Part shown: one piece after another, positions 1 to 6,667 of the stretch
Position numbering within the stretch: position 1 is the first letter of the stretch
Layout: every line of letters begins with the position of its first letter
Source: Candidatus Wolframiiraptor sp. EX4484-121
Lineage (GTDB): Archaea; Thermoproteota; Nitrososphaeria_A; Caldarchaeales; Wolframiiraptoraceae
Direction of reading: 5' to 3'
Length of the DNA stretch: 6,667 nucleotides
Assembly: GCA_002255105.1 (NCBI GenBank)
Contig: NJEK01000044.1
Span: 1 to 6,667, forward strand
Position numbers and translations under genes: made by a program
Notes under the pieces: generated by a model
Databases searched by the model: none
What the model saw: the letters and a program-made list of their open reading frames with translations, nothing else
What the model was told of the DNA's origin: nothing

Positions 1-2039
1 GGATAATAGAGTATTAACCCATTCTCCGCCAAGAACCTCATCGCGGCTGGAAGCTCCTTTGGATAAATTGAGATCGCGGGAACCCCGAGCAACGCCGCCT
101 CCTGCGTCATGGTTCCGCCTCCGCCTATGAAGATCGTGGAGTAGTAGATCAGAGATTGTCCGAATATCGGCTTATCGATCACCAAAACCCCTTCACCCTT
201 TAATGATCTACGAATGATCCTCGACTGCCCACGATATCTACATAGGATCACAAGCCTCAATCCCTCCAAGATTCCGGACAAGCTTTCGACAAAGTTCAGG
301 AACCGCTCATCTCTCATCCTCAAGTATGAGGCCATGGTCTCGGGCATCCTCAGAAGAATATACTTACCCTCCTCTAATCCGAGTTCCTTTAGCTGCTCCC
401 TTGACGGCTTGAAATCCTTCAGCCAGAAGCATGGGTCCAGAGCCCTATAATGTCTTATCCTCTTCGGATGAGCTCCTGCGTCGATCCACTCATCGTCAGG
501 AATTATCCAGGGGGTAAGCACCTTCTCAGAGATAGGGGCCACGAGCTTATTCACGGGCGAGTGCGGGGTGTCCGAGATCAGGATGTGAGGTATTCCCAAT
601 CCATAGGAGATCCTCGAAGCCTCAACGGACCCGCTTGAGAACGTAATATCCGGCTGAAGCTCGATCACGTGATCTAGGAGCCTTCCCAAGCGATCTATAC
701 TCGCCCTGAGCTTCCCCTCCAAGCTCCCACCGCCCCAGGAGCCTATCTTAACGATCTCCCAATCGCTGGAGAACTTCTCTAAGAGGCCATCAAGCTGGAT
801 GTAGTGCCGTGAGGTCATTATCGACTCATGGCCCAGCTCCCTCAAGGTCTTCGCGAGGCTCGTGAAGAGGAAGAGCTGCTTGAACTCCTTTGCAATCCTC
901 CTATCTACCGAGACGTTTGCGTCGACGAGGTCTAGGGGAAATGGTAGACCTGTAGCTGGGTTGGCGTTCTCCATAAGATATGCTAGAGTTGATTCCAGAT
1001 CCACTCCCCTCCCAAGCTCTATGCATGTTGGTGGAGCATGTGGAGATAATCTGACATAGATTCTTCTAACCCCGACAACCTCCCTAAAGATCTCTTCCTT
1101 AACCTCCCCCGCAGAGCCTTTCGGGGCCAGATCCGTGATTATCTGAGTCCTAAGCTTCTTATCGACATGGCCCAGCGCCCTCTCCAATTTCTCATCCTCT
1201 GGGAGACCCTCGATCTCTCGCTTAACCTCCTTAAACCATCCCTTAAGGCCATTATAGTGCAGGTAGCTCCACCTATCGCCGAGGAGATCCCTATAATCGA
1301 AATATTCCCCAGACCTCATCAAGCTTCTTAAGATGGATCTATCATTCTTATTCAAGGTCTCTTCCAACCTCCAATTCCTAGACAGTAGCCAGCCATCTAT
1401 CGCCGCCGTTCTAATGCGCTTGATGACGCCTATGGTCTTGCCGCTATCCATCAGCCTTCTACTCTTCTCATAGACTTCTCTCACGAGTTCCCATCCAACA
1501 ATCTTGAACCCCAATCCTAGAAGCTCCTTATCCTTTATCTCGCTACATCTAGCCCTAAATCCATAGAATGATCCATCTATCATCATCAGATCGACCTCAT
1601 ACTTCTCAATACATCTAAGCGCGAGATCCCTCTCAAGGAGCGTTCTCATCAAGCTTAGAAGCTTCCTCGTATATAGGGAGCTACCTGTTTGAGGCGCCAT
1701 TATGTATCCGGCGGCCATGCTCTCGTCGTCGTCATCCGATATGATCTCCCCTCCATCGAAGACCATGTAGCATCCCGTGTAGACCCCTATCCTGTATCCG
1801 AGCCTCTCGCTGAGCCTTGGAGAGGATGAGCCGTCGACCACCCCCACCCTCAGATCCCCGGCCAACCCAGCTGGAATGGGCCTGAACCTTAGATGTCTCT
1901 TAAGCTCCAGAATCCTCTCCCTCTCCTCCCTAAGCTCCTCGGCGACCCTCCTCGCGGCCCTCCCGGCAAGCTCGAAGAACTCCTCCTGAAGCCTCGGCGG
2001 GAGCCTTGAGATAGCGCTCTCCTCAAACCCCTCGCTCAT
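1..2039 (-). CDS. nurA: NurA nuclease fused in frame to a DUF354 glycosyltransferase-like domain (3' end beyond the window)
   Basis: One continuous minus-strand frame of 679 codons runs from ATG at 2039 to the left edge with no stop. Residues 1 to about 385 read as NurA, the 5'-3' nuclease that works with the HerA translocase in DNA-end resection. Visible motifs are VVDGSSSP (D69), ERDLAL (E136) and LMMIDGSFYG (D155), which supply the metal-binding acidic residues; E136 and D155 have the family's 19-residue spacing. The C-terminal NurA motif reads GLPFPLDLVD (364-373), where relatives usually have Y-P-x-P-L-x-x-A-H, so Tyr and His are replaced by L365 and D373. From about 386 the chain becomes DUF354 (PF04007, GT-B fold, MurG/epimerase-like): LRELGHE (399-405), GGGSLEGK (436-443), DTPHS (490-494), YRALDP (531-536), GGGGTMTQEAALLG (639 onward). 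DUF354 proteins are about 340 residues, so about 50 residues probably lie outside. The ATG is the only start in its frame before a stop at 2127-2129, apart from a GTG at 2057. Domain calls are firm; the fusion's function is unknown. Confidence 0.85.
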   Translation of the reverse strand, partial: MSEGFEESAISRLPPRLQEEFFELAGRAARRVAEELREERERILELKRHLRFRPIPAGLAGDLRVGVVDGSSSPRLSERLGYRIGVYTGCYMVFDGGEIISDDDDESMAAGYIMAPQTGSSLYTRKLLSLMRTLLERDLALRCIEKYEVDLMMIDGSFYGFRARCSEIKDKELLGLGFKIVGWELVREVYEKSRRLMDSGKTIGVIKRIRTAAIDGWLLSRNWRLEETLNKNDRSILRSLMRSGEYFDYRDLLGDRWSYLHYNGLKGWFKEVKREIEGLPEDEKLERALGHVDKKLRTQIITDLAPKGSAGEVKEEIFREVVGVRRIYVRLSPHAPPTCIELGRGVDLESTLAYLMENANPATGLPFPLDLVDANVSVDRRIAKEFKQLFLFTSLAKTLRELGHESIMTSRHYIQLDGLLEKFSSDWEIVKIGSWGGGSLEGKLRASIDRLGRLLDHVIELQPDITFSSGSVEASRISYGLGIPHILISDTPHSPVNKLVAPISEKVLTPWIIPDDEWIDAGAHPKRIRHYRALDPCFWLKDFKPSREQLKELGLEEGKYILLRMPETMASYLRMRDERFLNFVESLSGILEGLRLVILCRYRGQSRIIRRSLKGEGVLVIDKPIFGQSLIYYSTIFIGGGGTMTQEAALLGVPAISIYPKELPAAMRFLAENGLILYY

Positions 2040-2180: not shown

Positions 2181-2573
2181 ATGGAGAAGTATTCGGCGGT
2201 CTTGAGGAGGAGGGCTAGAGCCTTCTTGGAGAGCGCTAAAGCCGACTTCAATAGGGGAGATTACGACCTCGTCCTCTTCCACGTCGAGCAGTTCCTACAG
2301 CTTTACGCCAAGTATTTACTCTATCTGAGCCTCGGAGACTATCCAAAAACCCACTCCCTAACGAGACTATTGAAAGATCTCAAGAGGGTTCGCCGAGAAG
2401 ATCTCTTGAAAAAATTCTATGATGAGAACCTCGAGATGATAAACCTCCTCGAAGAGGCCTACATAACATCTAGGTATCTCCCGAGGGAGTATGATCAGGA
2501 GATAGCGAGGAGGGTTCTAGAGTTCGCCGAGAGAGCCTTAGAGGTGATGGAATGGCTCGAAAAACATTCATAG
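2181..2573 (+). CDS. HEPN domain protein (partner of MNT nucleotidyltransferase)
   Basis: This 130-residue, almost wholly helical protein has the layout of archaeal HEPN-domain (PF05168-type) proteins. The first helices carry AFLESAKADFNRGDYDLVLF (14-33) followed by H34, then KTHSLTRLL (56-64), then the conserved segment AYITSRYLP (93-101) and a C-terminal helix to residue 130. HEPN proteins are commonly ribonuclease toxins paired with a minimal nucleotidyltransferase (MNT) antitoxin, and an MNT gene follows here with a 22-bp overlap, so translation is probably coupled. The catalytic R-x4-6-H motif of active HEPN RNases is not visible: after R98 and R102 there is no His at the required spacing, and the only other histidines are H34, H58 and H129. 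It may therefore be a non-nuclease member or use other residues. The family and pairing are well supported; toxicity is inference. Confidence 0.85.
   Translation: MEKYSAVLRRRARAFLESAKADFNRGDYDLVLFHVEQFLQLYAKYLLYLSLGDYPKTHSLTRLLKDLKRVRREDLLKKFYDENLEMINLLEEAYITSRYLPREYDQEIARRVLEFAERALEVMEWLEKHS
2541..2547 (+). promoter_or_regulatory. Ribosome-binding site of the MNT gene, inside the HEPN gene
   Basis: GAGGTGA, a near-perfect complement of the archaeal 16S 3' end, lies four bases before the ATG at 2552. It supports that start and thus the 22-bp overlap with the HEPN frame. Confidence 0.6.
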
Positions 2574-2905
2574 ATCTGTTAATCGAGGGCGCCGAGGAGA
2601 GGAGCAGATTTTTCCGCGACTTCATCAAGTATGCTGAGAAGGTTAAGGAGATTGTTAAGCAGAGGGATCCCGATGCGAGGGTAATGCTATTCGGAAGCGC
2701 GGTGAAGGGAGAGCTCAGACCTGATAGCGACATAGACTTACTGATAATCACGGATATCGCGGAAGAACTCGACGAGAGGATCGGACTCAGAATGGAGGTC
2801 ATGAAGATTTTAGGTGAGGGGAGTCCATTCGAGATACATATAGTCACCGCCGAAGAGTATGAGGGTTGGTATAGGAGGTTCATCGACCGATTCCTCGAAC
2901 TATAA
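2552..2905 (+). CDS. Minimal nucleotidyltransferase (MNT), likely antitoxin of the HEPN protein
   Basis: This 117-residue protein of the DNA polymerase beta-like nucleotidyltransferase superfamily (PF01909) has the signature LFGSAVKGELRPDSDIDLLI (46-65): the GS of the nucleotide loop (48-49) and two metal-binding aspartates, D60 and D62. The third acidic position on the following strand is probably E94 in FEIHIVT (93-99), a common archaeal variant. An N-terminal helix (about 5-38) precedes the fold. In studied HEPN/MNT pairs the MNT protein neutralises the HEPN toxin, in some by transferring AMP onto a tyrosine of the HEPN protein. The catalytic residues here are intact, so it could be an active transferase. 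However, the partner lacks the usual R-x4-6-H motif and its associated tyrosine, so the modification target is unclear. It is co-transcribed with and overlaps the HEPN gene. No clear T-run terminator follows. Confidence 0.88.
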   Translation: MARKTFIDLLIEGAEERSRFFRDFIKYAEKVKEIVKQRDPDARVMLFGSAVKGELRPDSDIDLLIITDIAEELDERIGLRMEVMKILGEGSPFEIHIVTAEEYEGWYRRFIDRFLEL

Positions 2906-3047
2906 GTTCTGGATCACCTCCCACTCCTTGCATGAGTATTCCCAGCATCAATGTGTTTAACCGGCTTGAGCGATGTTAAATCCTTGTGTAGGAGCCTGAG
3001 AACTCAAGTCGATTAAGTATTATAAAAATAAGTGATGTTTTGGAGAC
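2906..3047. other. Convergent intergenic region between the MNT gene and the surface-protein gene
   Basis: These 142 bases separate two genes that point at each other. Apart from the A/T-rich tract at 3021-3031 I see no hairpin longer than 4 bp, no coding frame of note and no recognisable RNA. Confidence 0.5.
3021..3031 (-). terminator. Oligo-T terminator of the surface-protein gene
   Basis: On the minus strand TTATTTTTATA begins 17 bases after the TGA stop at 3048-3050. U-rich runs without a hairpin are the normal archaeal intrinsic terminator. The same tract read on the plus strand (TATAAAAATAA) also resembles a TATA box, but no plus-strand gene follows it. Confidence 0.5.
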
Positions 3048-4853
3048 TCACTTCAAGAGGGCTTTCAAGATCTTCGTGGGTGCCGTGACGGCGAGGGCTA
3101 TACATGATAGGACTATTATTGATGAGGATATCATCATGAGGGTTGGAAGCGCTGTTACCTCCGCCAAGGCGAAGAGTATCAACCCGAATAGAAGGGATAT
3201 GGCTGGATAGATTGGTGTAGCTGAGATCTTCCCAGCCCTCCGCTTCAAGATCAGGGCTACGATTATGAATGGCGGAGCGAAGTAAATCAGTCCTATTAAG
3301 GAGCTTGCAACCAATCCGGCTAAAAGGACTGCTAATTCTGATGTGGCTGAGAGGGGTTCGGCTAACGACCTCGAAAACTCCAAAATCGATAGCAGCGGAT
3401 AGATTGAGGCTCTTATCATGCTCCTTAAAACCTCATTTTCATGCTCAGCCCTTGCCACATATGGACTCCATGAATAATAGAATGCGTTGAAGACGTTCAT
3501 GAAGTTCCTTCCGGCGAATGTCTTCATGACGAATCCATCCCTAAATCCCCTCAATACCTGAACCTGTGGGGCGAGATCCGATCCAAAGGCCGCTGTCGCG
3601 ATTAAGCATCTCGGTCCCCCGGCCTGCGTAACCGTTGGGGTCACGGTCGACGTAACCGTTTCGGTCTTGGTCTCCGTCCTTATCTCCCTCTCCCTAACCG
3701 TCTCGGTAACGGTTCTCGTGACGACCGGCCCCCTGACCGTAGTCGTCTCTCTGACCGTAGTTGTCTCCGTAATAGTCTCGGTGATAGTTGAGGCTCCGGC
3801 CGTCTCCGTTATGGTCTCGGTGGCCGTCGAGGTAACCGTAGAGGTGACTGTGCTCACCGTTACCGATGGGGTGGGTGTGGTCGTCGTGGTGACCGGTGGA
3901 GCTGCTGTAGCTCCGGTGACGCCGAGCGCCAAGGTCTTATAATCGCTGATATAAGTGAGCCATAGGCCACCGACCTTAACTGCGTGGGATGCGCGTACCT
4001 TAACGTTGGAGACCCCGACATCCGCCGTCTCCGAGGCCGTTAGGGTTAATGTTGAGTCGAAGGGCGGTGTGCCTGATGGGGGGTTGAAGGAGGCCGTTAC
4101 ACCCGATGGAAGATCCGACGCCGATAACCCTACTTCCTCCGGGTAATCTCCTGTAACGTGGACCGTTATCGCGCCAGACTCACCCCGGTTTATATCGAGA
4201 CTATCAGGCTCCAAGCTCACAATCATCTCGTATCTCACCGTCATGTAAAGCTCTGCCCAGGCAACCCAATCTTGACCGGAGGACTCTCCCGCATCCACTA
4301 TAAGCTTGAGAGTATAGGTGTTGCCCCGCGCTGTATTTGGGACATCTACCTCGAAGCTTCTCACCCCGTCAGCATATTCTAAGTCGAAGGTGGTTAATAC
4401 GATACTGTCTCCTAATCTGATCTCTATCTTAACCTTTCCGGCGGTTCCCCCTTGGATGAATCCAACCTTCCCATAGAGGGTGGCCCCTCCCCCCGGGATG
4501 TAGATGTTGGAGTATGCTCCCATAATCCAGCCGTGGGGCTCCCATCTCGGATGAGTCTCCAAGATCTTCGAATAAGTTTTCCCATCATTGAGCACAACAT
4601 TATCCTTATACATGGCGAATCCTCTATCATCTGTGTCGGGCCCTCCAAACTCGATGGTCTCGCCCTCCGTCGGGGTTCCCGAACTCCATTCAGCCCCCTC
4701 AGCAAGCTCTATAAAGTCATATTCCTTGAAGGGTATGCTGTAGGCCGCGTTTACGCTGCTCAGATTTTGTATGAGCAACGCCATAGAGGTTGCCAGCAAC
4801 AGGAGGATACTCAATAAACTTATAGTCCTATTCAGGTTTAACCTCTTACCCAC
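3048..4853 (-). CDS. Exported surface protein: beta ectodomains, Thr-rich stalk, CFI-box domain, multi-helix membrane C-terminus
   Basis: This 601-residue protein probably sits in the cell envelope. A basic N-terminus and hydrophobic stretch (10-28) with AVNA-like small residues near 33-37 look like a signal peptide or anchor. Residues about 42-205 form a beta-rich domain with carbohydrate-binding-like character (RGFAMYKDNVVL, 77-88; SSGQDWVAWAELYM, 191-204). Residues 210-312 look like an Ig-like/NEW3-type domain. Residues 320-410 are a Thr/Val/Glu-rich stalk of TVTST/TETIT repeats, probably extended and glycosylated. C416 opens CLIATAAFGS, the CFI box, with the usual downstream RGFRDGFV and YYSWSPYVA, followed by hydrophobic helices at about 507-536, 549-568 and 570-590. 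Start: GTG at 4853 is forced because an in-frame TGA lies three codons upstream (4860-4862); no strong Shine-Dalgarno sequence is present, so a short-leader transcript is likely. The substrate or partner is unknown; the CFI box is suspected, not proven, to be a sorting or processing region. Confidence 0.85.
   Translation of the reverse strand: MGKRLNLNRTISLLSILLLLATSMALLIQNLSSVNAAYSIPFKEYDFIELAEGAEWSSGTPTEGETIEFGGPDTDDRGFAMYKDNVVLNDGKTYSKILETHPRWEPHGWIMGAYSNIYIPGGGATLYGKVGFIQGGTAGKVKIEIRLGDSIVLTTFDLEYADGVRSFEVDVPNTARGNTYTLKLIVDAGESSGQDWVAWAELYMTVRYEMIVSLEPDSLDINRGESGAITVHVTGDYPEEVGLSASDLPSGVTASFNPPSGTPPFDSTLTLTASETADVGVSNVKVRASHAVKVGGLWLTYISDYKTLALGVTGATAAPPVTTTTTPTPSVTVSTVTSTVTSTATETITETAGASTITETITETTTVRETTTVRGPVVTRTVTETVREREIRTETKTETVTSTVTPTVTQAGGPRCLIATAAFGSDLAPQVQVLRGFRDGFVMKTFAGRNFMNVFNAFYYSWSPYVARAEHENEVLRSMIRASIYPLLSILEFSRSLAEPLSATSELAVLLAGLVASSLIGLIYFAPPFIIVALILKRRAGKISATPIYPAISLLFGLILFALAEVTALPTLMMISSSIIVLSCIALAVTAPTKILKALLK
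3624..3896 (-). repeat. Thr-rich stalk-coding low-complexity region
   Basis: About 90 codons encode an irregular TVT/TET array. The DNA is correspondingly repetitive, in units near 6 and 18 bp, and gives a spurious Val-rich open frame on the opposite strand. Such tracts commonly change length by slippage or recombination, altering how far the ectodomain reaches from the membrane. Confidence 0.75.
3733..3768 (-). repeat. Tandem 18-bp duplication in the stalk
   Basis: CTGACCGTAGTCGTCTCT (3733-3750) is followed at once by CTGACCGTAGTTGTCTCC (3751-3768), 16 of 18 positions identical. It encodes two consecutive RETTTV-type hexapeptides (residues about 362-374). The near-identity at synonymous positions suggests recent duplication. 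Confidence 0.8.
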
Positions 4854-4884
4854 ACCTAGTCACGGTCTCGGGGCTCTCTGCACG

Positions 4885-4892
4885 CTTATAAA
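4885..4892 (-). promoter_or_regulatory. TATA box of the surface-protein gene
   Basis: TTTATAAG on the minus strand is a near-consensus archaeal TATA box centred about 35 bases before the GTG at 4853. Transcription would start near 4862, leaving a leader of about 9 nucleotides. Confidence 0.6.
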
Positions 4893-4931
4893 CATTAGAC
4901 TCTCGGGAATTTCATGGTAATACTTCGAGAC

Positions 4932-4949
4932 AGGTTTCTGACGATCCTC
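4932..4949 (-). repeat. Copy B of the imperfect 18-bp upstream element
   Basis: The minus strand reads GAGGATCGTCAGAAACCT, matching 15 of 18 positions of the element at 2070-2087. It lies 40 bases upstream of the TATA box of the surface-protein gene, so its spacing to the promoter differs from that of copy A. Confidence 0.3.
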
Positions 4950-5083
4950 ATGAATAATCTCAAGCTCATTTCCCTTCTTAGATGAGAATCTTCCCGAAAG
5001 GGCGCCAAACTTCAAAGGATATTTCACTTATTAACGAACATCATACATCAATCCCCTCCTCTTCACGATAAATTCTTAAGAGC

Positions 5084-5090
5084 CTTATAT
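5084..5090 (+). promoter_or_regulatory. TATA box of the small membrane protein gene
   Basis: CTTATAT is centred about 29 bases before ATG 5117, so transcription would start near 5113-5114. This favours ATG 5117 over TTG 5099, which would lie upstream of the predicted transcript start. Confidence 0.45.
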
Positions 5091-5100
5091 CGAGTAAATT

Positions 5101-5108
5101 GGAAGGTG
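5101..5108 (+). promoter_or_regulatory. Ribosome-binding site deciding the ATG 5117 start
   Basis: GGAAGGTG is spaced eight bases from ATG 5117 and overlaps the competing TTG start at 5099-5101. It is partly redundant if the transcript starts near 5114, in which case the mRNA would be leaderless. Confidence 0.35.
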
Positions 5109-5116
5109 CCGTATCC

Positions 5117-5443
5117 ATGGGGAGGAGGCTCGCGGCCTCGATCTCGATCACAAGCGGCGCTTTAACGATCCTGAATGCTTGGAGTCTCTTCCAGCAATCG
5201 TCATTCTACTTCGCCGTCGCGTGTTATCTGCTCGCATTTGGCTCACTCAACATCCTCGCCGCGGCTTTCCTCCTGATTTACGGGAGGCGCGAGGCTTACT
5301 GGGGGTCGTTGATCGAAGCGTCCTCGATCCTAGCGTTTCTCTCGTTCGCGCTATCGCGAGCCACCCATCTGTTTATACCGGCATTGATCGCTTTCTACCT
5401 CGGAGCCATCGGCGGAATGCTATCGGTTGCCAGCGGAACTTGA
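5117..5443 (+). CDS. Small four-helix membrane protein of unknown function
   Basis: The product is 108 residues when started at ATG 5117. I do not recognise the family. It begins with a basic MGRR and has four predicted membrane helices at about 6-24, 31-55, 62-80 and 84-104, with a short RR-containing loop at 57-58 and a polar turn at 80-84. This suggests a compact integral membrane protein with both ends probably on the same side. A longer form starting at TTG 5099 is possible (114 residues), but the TATA box at 5084-5090 places the transcript start after it, and GGAAGGTG (5101-5108) sits eight bases before ATG 5117 as a ribosome-binding site. The last 24 bases overlap, tail to tail, the end of the HerA-like gene. 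It is divergent from the surface-protein gene, so a shared role at the envelope is possible but unproven. Confidence 0.65.
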   Translation: MGRRLAASISITSGALTILNAWSLFQQSSFYFAVACYLLAFGSLNILAAAFLLIYGRREAYWGSLIEASSILAFLSFALSRATHLFIPALIAFYLGAIGGMLSVASGT

Positions 5444-6667
5444 TCCTTCATCATCGTTTATCTGGAAGCTTATGAGCAATGGGGTTGGGGAGGGATTCAT
5501 CCTACCTAGGAAGTAGAAGTGGCCTTCAGGGAGGGTTAGGAGGGTTTCGGGCGAGATGTAGTAGGATGCGGCGAGCTTTTGAGCCTCCTCAAAGTCTAGT
5601 GGATGGATTCTGCCGATGAATTGTGTATTCAAATTCCTCCTAACGGCCGAGTTTAATCCTATCTCACCGGCCATTCCCTGCGACAGGATCACTATAGACA
5701 ATCCATAGCTTCTGCCAAGAGCGCAGAGATCTATTATCAAGTCGGTCGTTTCCCTCTCAAGTCCTCTCGGCTGCCAGGGGGCGTATTGCGGCCCCTCATC
5801 TATTATCAACGCCACATCTAATCTCTGCTTCCTCTCCATCAACCTCTTCAAGTACCGGGTTATCGAGTAGAATGCCGCGAGCTTCTGCTCCTTCTCACCC
5901 TTACTCATATCTATCACGACCAAGCCCTTATCCTTCGCCTCGGCTAGGATCTCCCAAGGCTCCATGGTTCCGAGGAATTTCTCCAGCTCCTCCTCGGTTA
6001 TGAGCTCGAAGGACGCCTCCAACCTCTCGAGCCAGAGCTGAGCGGTCTCCGACTTCAACTTACTCCCCTGCAATTCGAGGATTGATTTCGCCTTCCTATA
6101 CAGTAGTTCTCTGGCCTCGGATGGGCTTCTCCCCCTCCACTCAACGGTCCTCAAAGCCCTCTCGAATGCTCCGGCGACAGGGTTCTCCTCCCTTCCATGG
6201 TATCCGAAGTTCTTGGTGAGCTGGCTGAAGTAGCTTAGAACCGTGAAGTCATCTACCTTGATCCTATCCAGGAGGATCACGGGCTCAAAGTATGGGGCGT
6301 AGTCGCTCCCCTTCCAATCCATTATTATCAAGCTGTAGTCGGCCTTTCGGAGGAGCGGTATTATCTCATATCTCGCAAGATAGGATTTGCCCGAGCCCGT
6401 GACGCCGAAGATCCCGATATGATAGTTTATGTATTGTTTCAGGATCGGGACCCTCCAGTTCGGCCTACCCCAGTAGTGGCCTATCGTTAGATCGGATCTC
6501 TTGCTTAGAAGCCTCATGGGGTCATCTTCATCCGAGAATAACTCGACGGTCGATGTTGGGGCGATTATCAGCTTATTCTGCTCTATCCCATCTTCTCCAA
6601 CCATCCCGATCACCTCGAGGTTGAAGGTGTAGTATTCTTTGGCGCTGCTCGGAACCCTCCCCCTCCT
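5420..6667 (-). CDS. herA: HerA-like hexameric DNA translocase ATPase (5' end probably beyond the window)
   Basis: This is a HerA/FtsK-superfamily P-loop ATPase (DUF87 type) that pumps DNA and is classically paired with NurA. Counting from GTG 6613, Walker A is GVTGSGKS (70-77), Walker B is VALIIDEGPQYAP (267-279, with D272/E273), a sensor-like SQG is at 311-313 and a probable arginine finger is in AVRRNLNTQFIGR (323-335). The segment 145-260 is a helical insert. The frame stays open for 18 more codons to the right edge (ending KEYYTFNLE before the GTG), and VIGMVGEDG resembles the end of the N-terminal HAS-barrel of HerA. The true start is therefore probably outside. Alternatively, ATG at 6604 is preceded four bases away by GAGGTGAT, an excellent ribosome-binding sequence, giving a complete 394-residue protein lacking the barrel. 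The 3' end overlaps the small membrane gene by 24 bp. The ATPase call is firm; pairing with this window's NurA is inference. The symbol denotes the family. Confidence 0.82.
   Translation of the reverse strand, partial: RRGRVPSSAKEYYTFNLEVIGMVGEDGIEQNKLIIAPTSTVELFSDEDDPMRLLSKRSDLTIGHYWGRPNWRVPILKQYINYHIGIFGVTGSGKSYLARYEIIPLLRKADYSLIIMDWKGSDYAPYFEPVILLDRIKVDDFTVLSYFSQLTKNFGYHGREENPVAGAFERALRTVEWRGRSPSEARELLYRKAKSILELQGSKLKSETAQLWLERLEASFELITEEELEKFLGTMEPWEILAEAKDKGLVVIDMSKGEKEQKLAAFYSITRYLKRLMERKQRLDVALIIDEGPQYAPWQPRGLERETTDLIIDLCALGRSYGLSIVILSQGMAGEIGLNSAVRRNLNTQFIGRIHPLDFEEAQKLAASYYISPETLLTLPEGHFYFLGRMNPSPTPLLISFQINDDEGSSSAGNR

Follow-up and report, generated by a model that had tools for sequence, protein, structure and literature searches.

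The nurA-DUF354 frame and its surroundings

We analysed a window (the whole stretch of DNA presented above, 6,667 nucleotides) whose left part carries, on the minus strand, a frame with no stop from position 2057 to position 3 that runs to the left window edge. Translation can start at an upstream GTG at 2057 or at an ATG at 2039, the latter giving a product of 679 residues. Pfam searches find two domains in this product. Residues 122–378 match the NurA nuclease family PF09376 (E 2.6e-9, profile positions 65–254 of 254) and residues 391–676 match DUF354, PF04007 (E 2.4e-40, profile positions 15–303 of 349); with 37.4 bits against a gathering cut-off of 21 and 139.1 bits against a cut-off of 22, both halves score above the threshold of their family. 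Translation and profile search thus confirm the preliminary description of this DNA, which had reported a stop-free frame from 2039 to the left edge coding for NurA and then DUF354.

A scan of a genome collection for loci coding both halves yielded two, L001 (JAGGTD010000050.1) and L002 (JAGGRY010000022.1), both from Thaumarchaeota archaeon MAGs and orthologous to the window at 81–90 % DNA identity. The nurA part of the frame (882..2039, minus strand, residues 1–386) is supported by PF09376, by DNA identities of 86 % and 83 % in the pieces that include nurA and by protein identities of 88 % and 87 % to the relatives G001 and G002 over residues 1–387/388. The DUF354 gene (1..881, minus strand) is represented from its residue 11 onwards, the K of SPKQ; it shows PF04007, DNA identities of 84 % to L001 and 81 % to L002, and protein identities of 83 % to G001 and 84 % to G002 over residues 378/386–679. 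The protein matches of both halves are far beyond chance, and neither half contains a frameshift or a stop. The 3′ end of the DUF354 gene lies beyond the window edge, and the gene lacks a start codon of its own as well as the first beta strand. From the MAFFT alignment and the coordinates of the two loci, the junction lies at 881..882 (minus strand), between residues 386 (F) and 387 (K), within the interval 840–980 where it had been expected.

The partner ATPase of NurA is encoded at the other end of the window by herA (5420..6667, minus strand), recognised by the Pfam DUF87 HerA central domain and with its 5′ end off the window. Positions 5099–6667 share 90 % DNA identity with L001, and the neighbourhood of herA is the same in that locus. 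Divergent from nurA is a gene for a HEPN-domain protein (2181..2573, plus strand; PF05168, E 4.1e-30), a conserved neighbour in both L001 (5471–5863) and L002 (464–856). It overlaps a gene for a minimal nucleotidyltransferase, or MNT (2552..2905, plus strand; PF01909, E 4e-16; L001 5139–5492, L002 132–485). The two overlapping genes (2181–2905, plus strand) sit between nurA and herA, as they do in L001, and the only match that NCBIfam gives for the pair is a sub-threshold one to the MntA antitoxin. Between the MNT gene and a small ORF lies a gene (3048–4853, minus strand) whose 601-aa product has a CFI-box domain at its C-terminus. Positions 2921–5098 have no counterpart at the same place in L001, and the CFI-box gene is absent there; a related stretch (70 % DNA identity over 442 bp) is found near the end of the L001 locus.

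The block absent from the window

In both L001 and L002 nurA is complete (420 aa), ends in INPQKEE and is closed by a TAG stop. The DUF354 gene follows in tandem, as a listed ORF of 353 aa in L001 (counted from an upstream TTG) and of 351 aa in L002, and its MRIW start ATG lies 9 bases past the nurA stop in L001 and 8 bases past it in L002. The tandem pair occupies 5995–8322 in L001 and 988–3314 in L002; eight further genomes also have the genes in tandem, and in others they are apart. In the DNA alignment the window lacks one clean block relative to these loci, 138 bp against L001 and 137 bp against L002, with flanks that align on both sides. The block spans the last 32 codons of nurA with their stop, the spacer, and the first 10 codons of DUF354 if these are counted from the MRIW ATG. 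Its removal keeps the reading frame and cuts between codons, for which the chance is 1 in 3. It is the only large gap in this gene pair between the window and the two loci. Elsewhere the comparison with L001 shows 5 gap positions in the piece 882–2920 and 1 in the piece 5099–6667.

The BLASTN pieces against L001 cover 882–2920 at 86 % and 4–882 at 84 %, and because they meet at position 882 any microhomology amounts to at most 1 bp. A stretch of 401 bp surrounding the block in L001 holds no direct repeat. In the window itself there is an imperfect 16-nt repeat pair (711–726 and 1004–1019), located away from the join. We considered a 9-nt inverted repeat near the block in L001 as a cause and dropped it, since 38 of 119 L001 windows of that size contain one. 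Repeat-mediated deletion likewise found no support. With microhomology of at most 1 bp and no direct repeat at the breakpoints, neither a repeat-driven deletion nor an overlap-driven misassembly is specifically indicated.

The block removes conserved positions from both proteins. From NurA it takes E391 and E393, which are invariant, and N415–K418, which are nearly invariant, among 29 proteins in P0007 numbering. The acidic residues D71, E138 and D157 (same numbering), which we take to be the active-site residues, are invariant in the 29 proteins and present in the window. An NPQK sequence near the C-terminal end occurs in 81 of 83 NurA matches and is absent from the window; this tail is a feature of the NurA matches assembled here and lies outside the Pfam definition. 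In the models, the near-universal tail of these archaeal NurA proteins is placed at low confidence. We regard it as a candidate peptide for docking to HerA or to DNA.

DUF354 loses the invariant residues D6, L8 and P10, located in and just after beta strand 1. Neither the N-terminal motif W-x-D-x-L-[ST]-P-[KR]-[QH] nor the first strand is found in the window, and the shortening at KQLFLF that the preliminary description had noticed is real, everything before the K-Q of the motif being gone. The motif is carried by 108 of 116 sequences picked by motif, a set that includes the window and leaves out five further DUF354 rows that the motif pick missed. The other eight comprise three with substitutions, four that start within or after the motif, and the window itself.

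Separate genes in relatives

To find a second protein of this architecture, 5.8 billion sequences were searched with a length window admitting a fusion, and the best 7993 candidates were scored. None of the 85 resulting matches is a fused protein; their maximum length is 474 aa, and coverage of the query never exceeds 61 %. The closest NurA among these matches, P0002, is 97 % identical over residues 1–386 and shares the nurA ATG start of the window. Past the join it continues as ADEVEVRLLLD, which is normal NurA sequence. The last six residues of P0002 read LSLIHI, presumably a translated Nextera adapter at a contaminated contig end, so that only 11 residues past the join are usable. Among the DUF354 proteins retrieved, none is nearer than 87 % to the window. 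At least 12 NurA and DUF354 matches pair by source and by the length of their contigs (for example P0003/P0131 with 7,194 bases and P0020/P0087 with 18,457 bases), which suggests that the same contigs carry two separate proteins.

We also examined 61 genomes around L001, 56 of which have a match. No row spans both halves in any of the 61. Some NurA rows extend past residue 387 by up to 28 residues, reaching 415 in G044, 408 in G024, 405 in G043, 401 in G032 and 390 in three more. The one of these rows that was read, G044, with a frame of 645, proved to be a separate NurA of 421 aa. A family search finds the DUF354 domain in 54 of the 61 genomes, each with a single match above the cut-off; two of them have a second, sub-threshold match, and no frame is longer than 502 aa.

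Ten of the 61 genomes (G001, G002, G003, G004, G007, G010, G013, G016, G019 and G021) have the two genes side by side. All ten pairs have a stop codon between the genes, TAG in nine and TAA in one, with its first base 22–27 bases before the D-[IA]-L-S-P-K-Q codons. The spacing from this stop to DUF354 keeps the nurA frame in four genomes and falls into the other frames in four and two. As all three frames occur, the relatives keep no fusion frame; stops and three-frame spacing would not be expected in a lineage selecting for a fusion. Four of these genomes have open frames shared by both genes (776, 811 and 782 aa in G001, G010 and G013, and 490 aa in G019, whose contig is cut). We rejected them as natural fusions, because a TAG separates the genes in each and the frames found by the family search are of normal length, 352–355 aa. 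We know of no functional link between nurA and the DUF354 gene.

Beyond these genomes, the protein search gave two distant DUF354 matches on plasmids, both haloarchaeal, and near DNA matching gave no match in phages. Viral contigs returned five pattern matches, none a confirmed relative, and a 30-mer across the join had no exact match there. The titles and abstract openings surveyed for NurA, HerA, DUF354, glycosyltransferase and archaea mention no NurA-DUF354 fusion. The search of related genomes for the same architecture, proposed at the outset, has thus produced no fused protein among 85 protein matches and 61 genomes, and no established fusion family or independent genome with the architecture is found in that material. 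Close relatives with two separate intact genes, named beforehand as the observation that would speak against a genuine enzyme, are found in L001, in L002 and in the other adjacent pairs (10 of 10), with the parts missing from the window present.

One metagenome protein deserves separate mention. P0061, of 390 residues and represented by a single sequence, opens with LESRPLPNPELGVGITYGELELINPRK; its residues 1–40 read like the tail of a NurA and continue into DUF354 in frame without a stop. Among the best 120 of its 1,671 matches, a set that includes P0061 itself, only two others, P0062 and P0103, begin well ahead of the DUF354 motif, and they do so with other sequence; five rows missed by the motif pick were judged on length only (352–361 aa). 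Since the NurA tail and the first strand of DUF354 are both retained, the join in P0061 differs from that of the window. Loss of the separating stop may not be unique to the window, and in P0061 it may reflect stop loss, a frameshift or an error.

Origin of the joined frame

The dN/dS of the window against L001 is 0.086 for NurA and 0.097 for DUF354, and against L002 it is 0.081 and 0.080; the control pair L001 and L002 gives 0.051 and 0.086. Restricted to 60 codons each side of the join, the values are 0.038 and 0.099 for the window versus L001, compared to 0.019 and 0.056 for L001 versus L002. The window ratios are low and mostly slightly above those of the control pair. Because dS is 0.7–1.1 (2.5 in one 60-codon control) and the codons are few, we read no relaxation into these numbers, with which a slight relaxation of selection on the window halves would nevertheless be compatible. 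By these ratios both halves look as if they had been maintained as genes until recently. Low dN/dS is compatible with all three origins, artefact, recent deletion and working fusion, and is not decisive alone.

Taken together, these results make it highly probable that an adjacent, separately translated nurA and DUF354 gene became one continuous frame through a single clean loss of about 138 bp. We propose that an internal block was lost, in the cell or in the assembly, in an event that would be private or very recent, and that the frame would not represent an evolved two-domain enzyme; the recent date is our inference. Some observations sit less easily with block loss. The join is in frame and on a codon boundary, it has no repeat and at most 1 bp of microhomology, the low dN/dS of both halves would also suit a working fusion, and P0061 offers a stop-free NurA tail with DUF354. 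Three readings had been offered initially, a real two-domain enzyme, a deletion joining neighbouring genes and an assembly error, with a leaning towards a join. That leaning has stood, given the intact separate genes in relatives; the real enzyme has found no support, given the lack of a second example in these searches and the loss of conserved residues.

Block loss has two sub-cases, and we lean slightly towards the artefact. It stands at about even chances that the genome has two intact genes and that about 138 bp were dropped during contig building or by chimeric molecules. The 97 %-identical NurA of P0002, intact past the join, points this way, as does the absence of stops and frameshifts in either half; otherwise two conserved genes would have been damaged at once. 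Against an artefact, the join offers no repeat or overlap to explain a graph or overlap error, it is in frame, and the few small gaps elsewhere relative to L001 indicate that the contig is not generally poor. A real private deletion in one strain, leaving a joined gene that is largely non-functional or impaired, is a serious possibility that we rate somewhat below even. The otherwise clean sequence and the in-frame join, stop-free to the window edge, would be consistent with it, but it requires damage to two conserved genes, and PMC12977600 reports that nurA and herA are essential in S. islandicus and that they could not be disrupted in T. kodakarensis.

A functional enzyme combining the NurA nuclease with a DUF354 sugar-nucleotide domain, for which the long in-frame ORF, the low dN/dS of both halves and the adjacency of the genes in 10 of 61 relatives could be cited, is very unlikely: no second case exists among the 85 protein matches from the best 7993 scored candidates or in the 61 genomes, DUF354 has lost its start, its first strand and invariant residues and NurA its NPQK tail, and the intact 97 % sister, the damage to two conserved genes and the reported essentiality of nurA in S. 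islandicus make it the least likely origin. It is hardly to be expected that the deletion is fixed in a lineage and the joined protein made, with the C-terminal end of NurA swapped for a sugar-nucleotide-binding domain. Such a protein, if real, would form a physical bridge from the resection of DNA ends to the metabolism of the cell surface or of nucleotide sugars.

Under block loss, the consequences for the products can be anticipated from the intact proteins. With its first strand lost, DUF354 would probably fold badly, if at all. A NurA that lacks the C-terminal extension would probably keep its catalytic core and be impaired in dimerisation or in the handling of HerA or DNA. Where the genes are intact, as in the relatives, the expected role of NurA is to process DNA ends together with HerA, whose gene lies 3.4 kb away; DUF354 would act on sugar nucleotides as an enzyme in its own right, with a GT-B-type fold, 'GT-B' being our own label for the fold.

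The architecture is best explained as neither established nor likely to be a functional enzyme, and not as a new kind of enzyme. Loss of one block between tandem genes can mimic a new enzyme in sequence data, and recognising it here spares domain catalogues a doubtful nuclease-glycosyltransferase architecture. Two further results, a conserved nurA-DUF354 pair in one archaeal group and a near-universal NPQK tail, are modest but testable.

For comparison with known systems, the two families were modelled apart, from intact relatives, since a joint alignment (A1) to P0001 set DUF354 rows on the NurA half. NCBIfam has no profile matching P0001, P0007 or the L002 DUF354 protein, and phmmer found no match to P0007 among PDB sequences. 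Relative to the NurA nuclease (PF09376; 2YGK, 9X1M), the NurA of the window lacks its final 32 residues, among them E391, E393 and the NPQK tail. Relative to PF04007, residues 387–679 match, and residues 1–10 of DUF354 (beta strand 1 with W-x-D-x-L-S-P) and the start codon are gone. DUF354 is described as a predicted glycosyltransferase with few conserved catalytic residues and a function called obscure in PMC4520260. The model of the intact L002 ortholog (pLDDT 91) has fold matches at a TM of about 0.6–0.8, and its nearest solved folds are 8SXW, a UDP-diacetamido-dideoxyglucuronic acid 2-epimerase, 4NEQ, a UDP-GlcNAc 2-epimerase, and glycosyltransferases. The closest likeness of the whole locus is to the tandem nurA-DUF354 pair of L001 and L002, which has the same gene order with HEPN/MNT beside it and, in L001, herA nearby (L002 ends before herA). 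In that pair, a stop codon and a spacer part the two genes, whereas the window lacks both.
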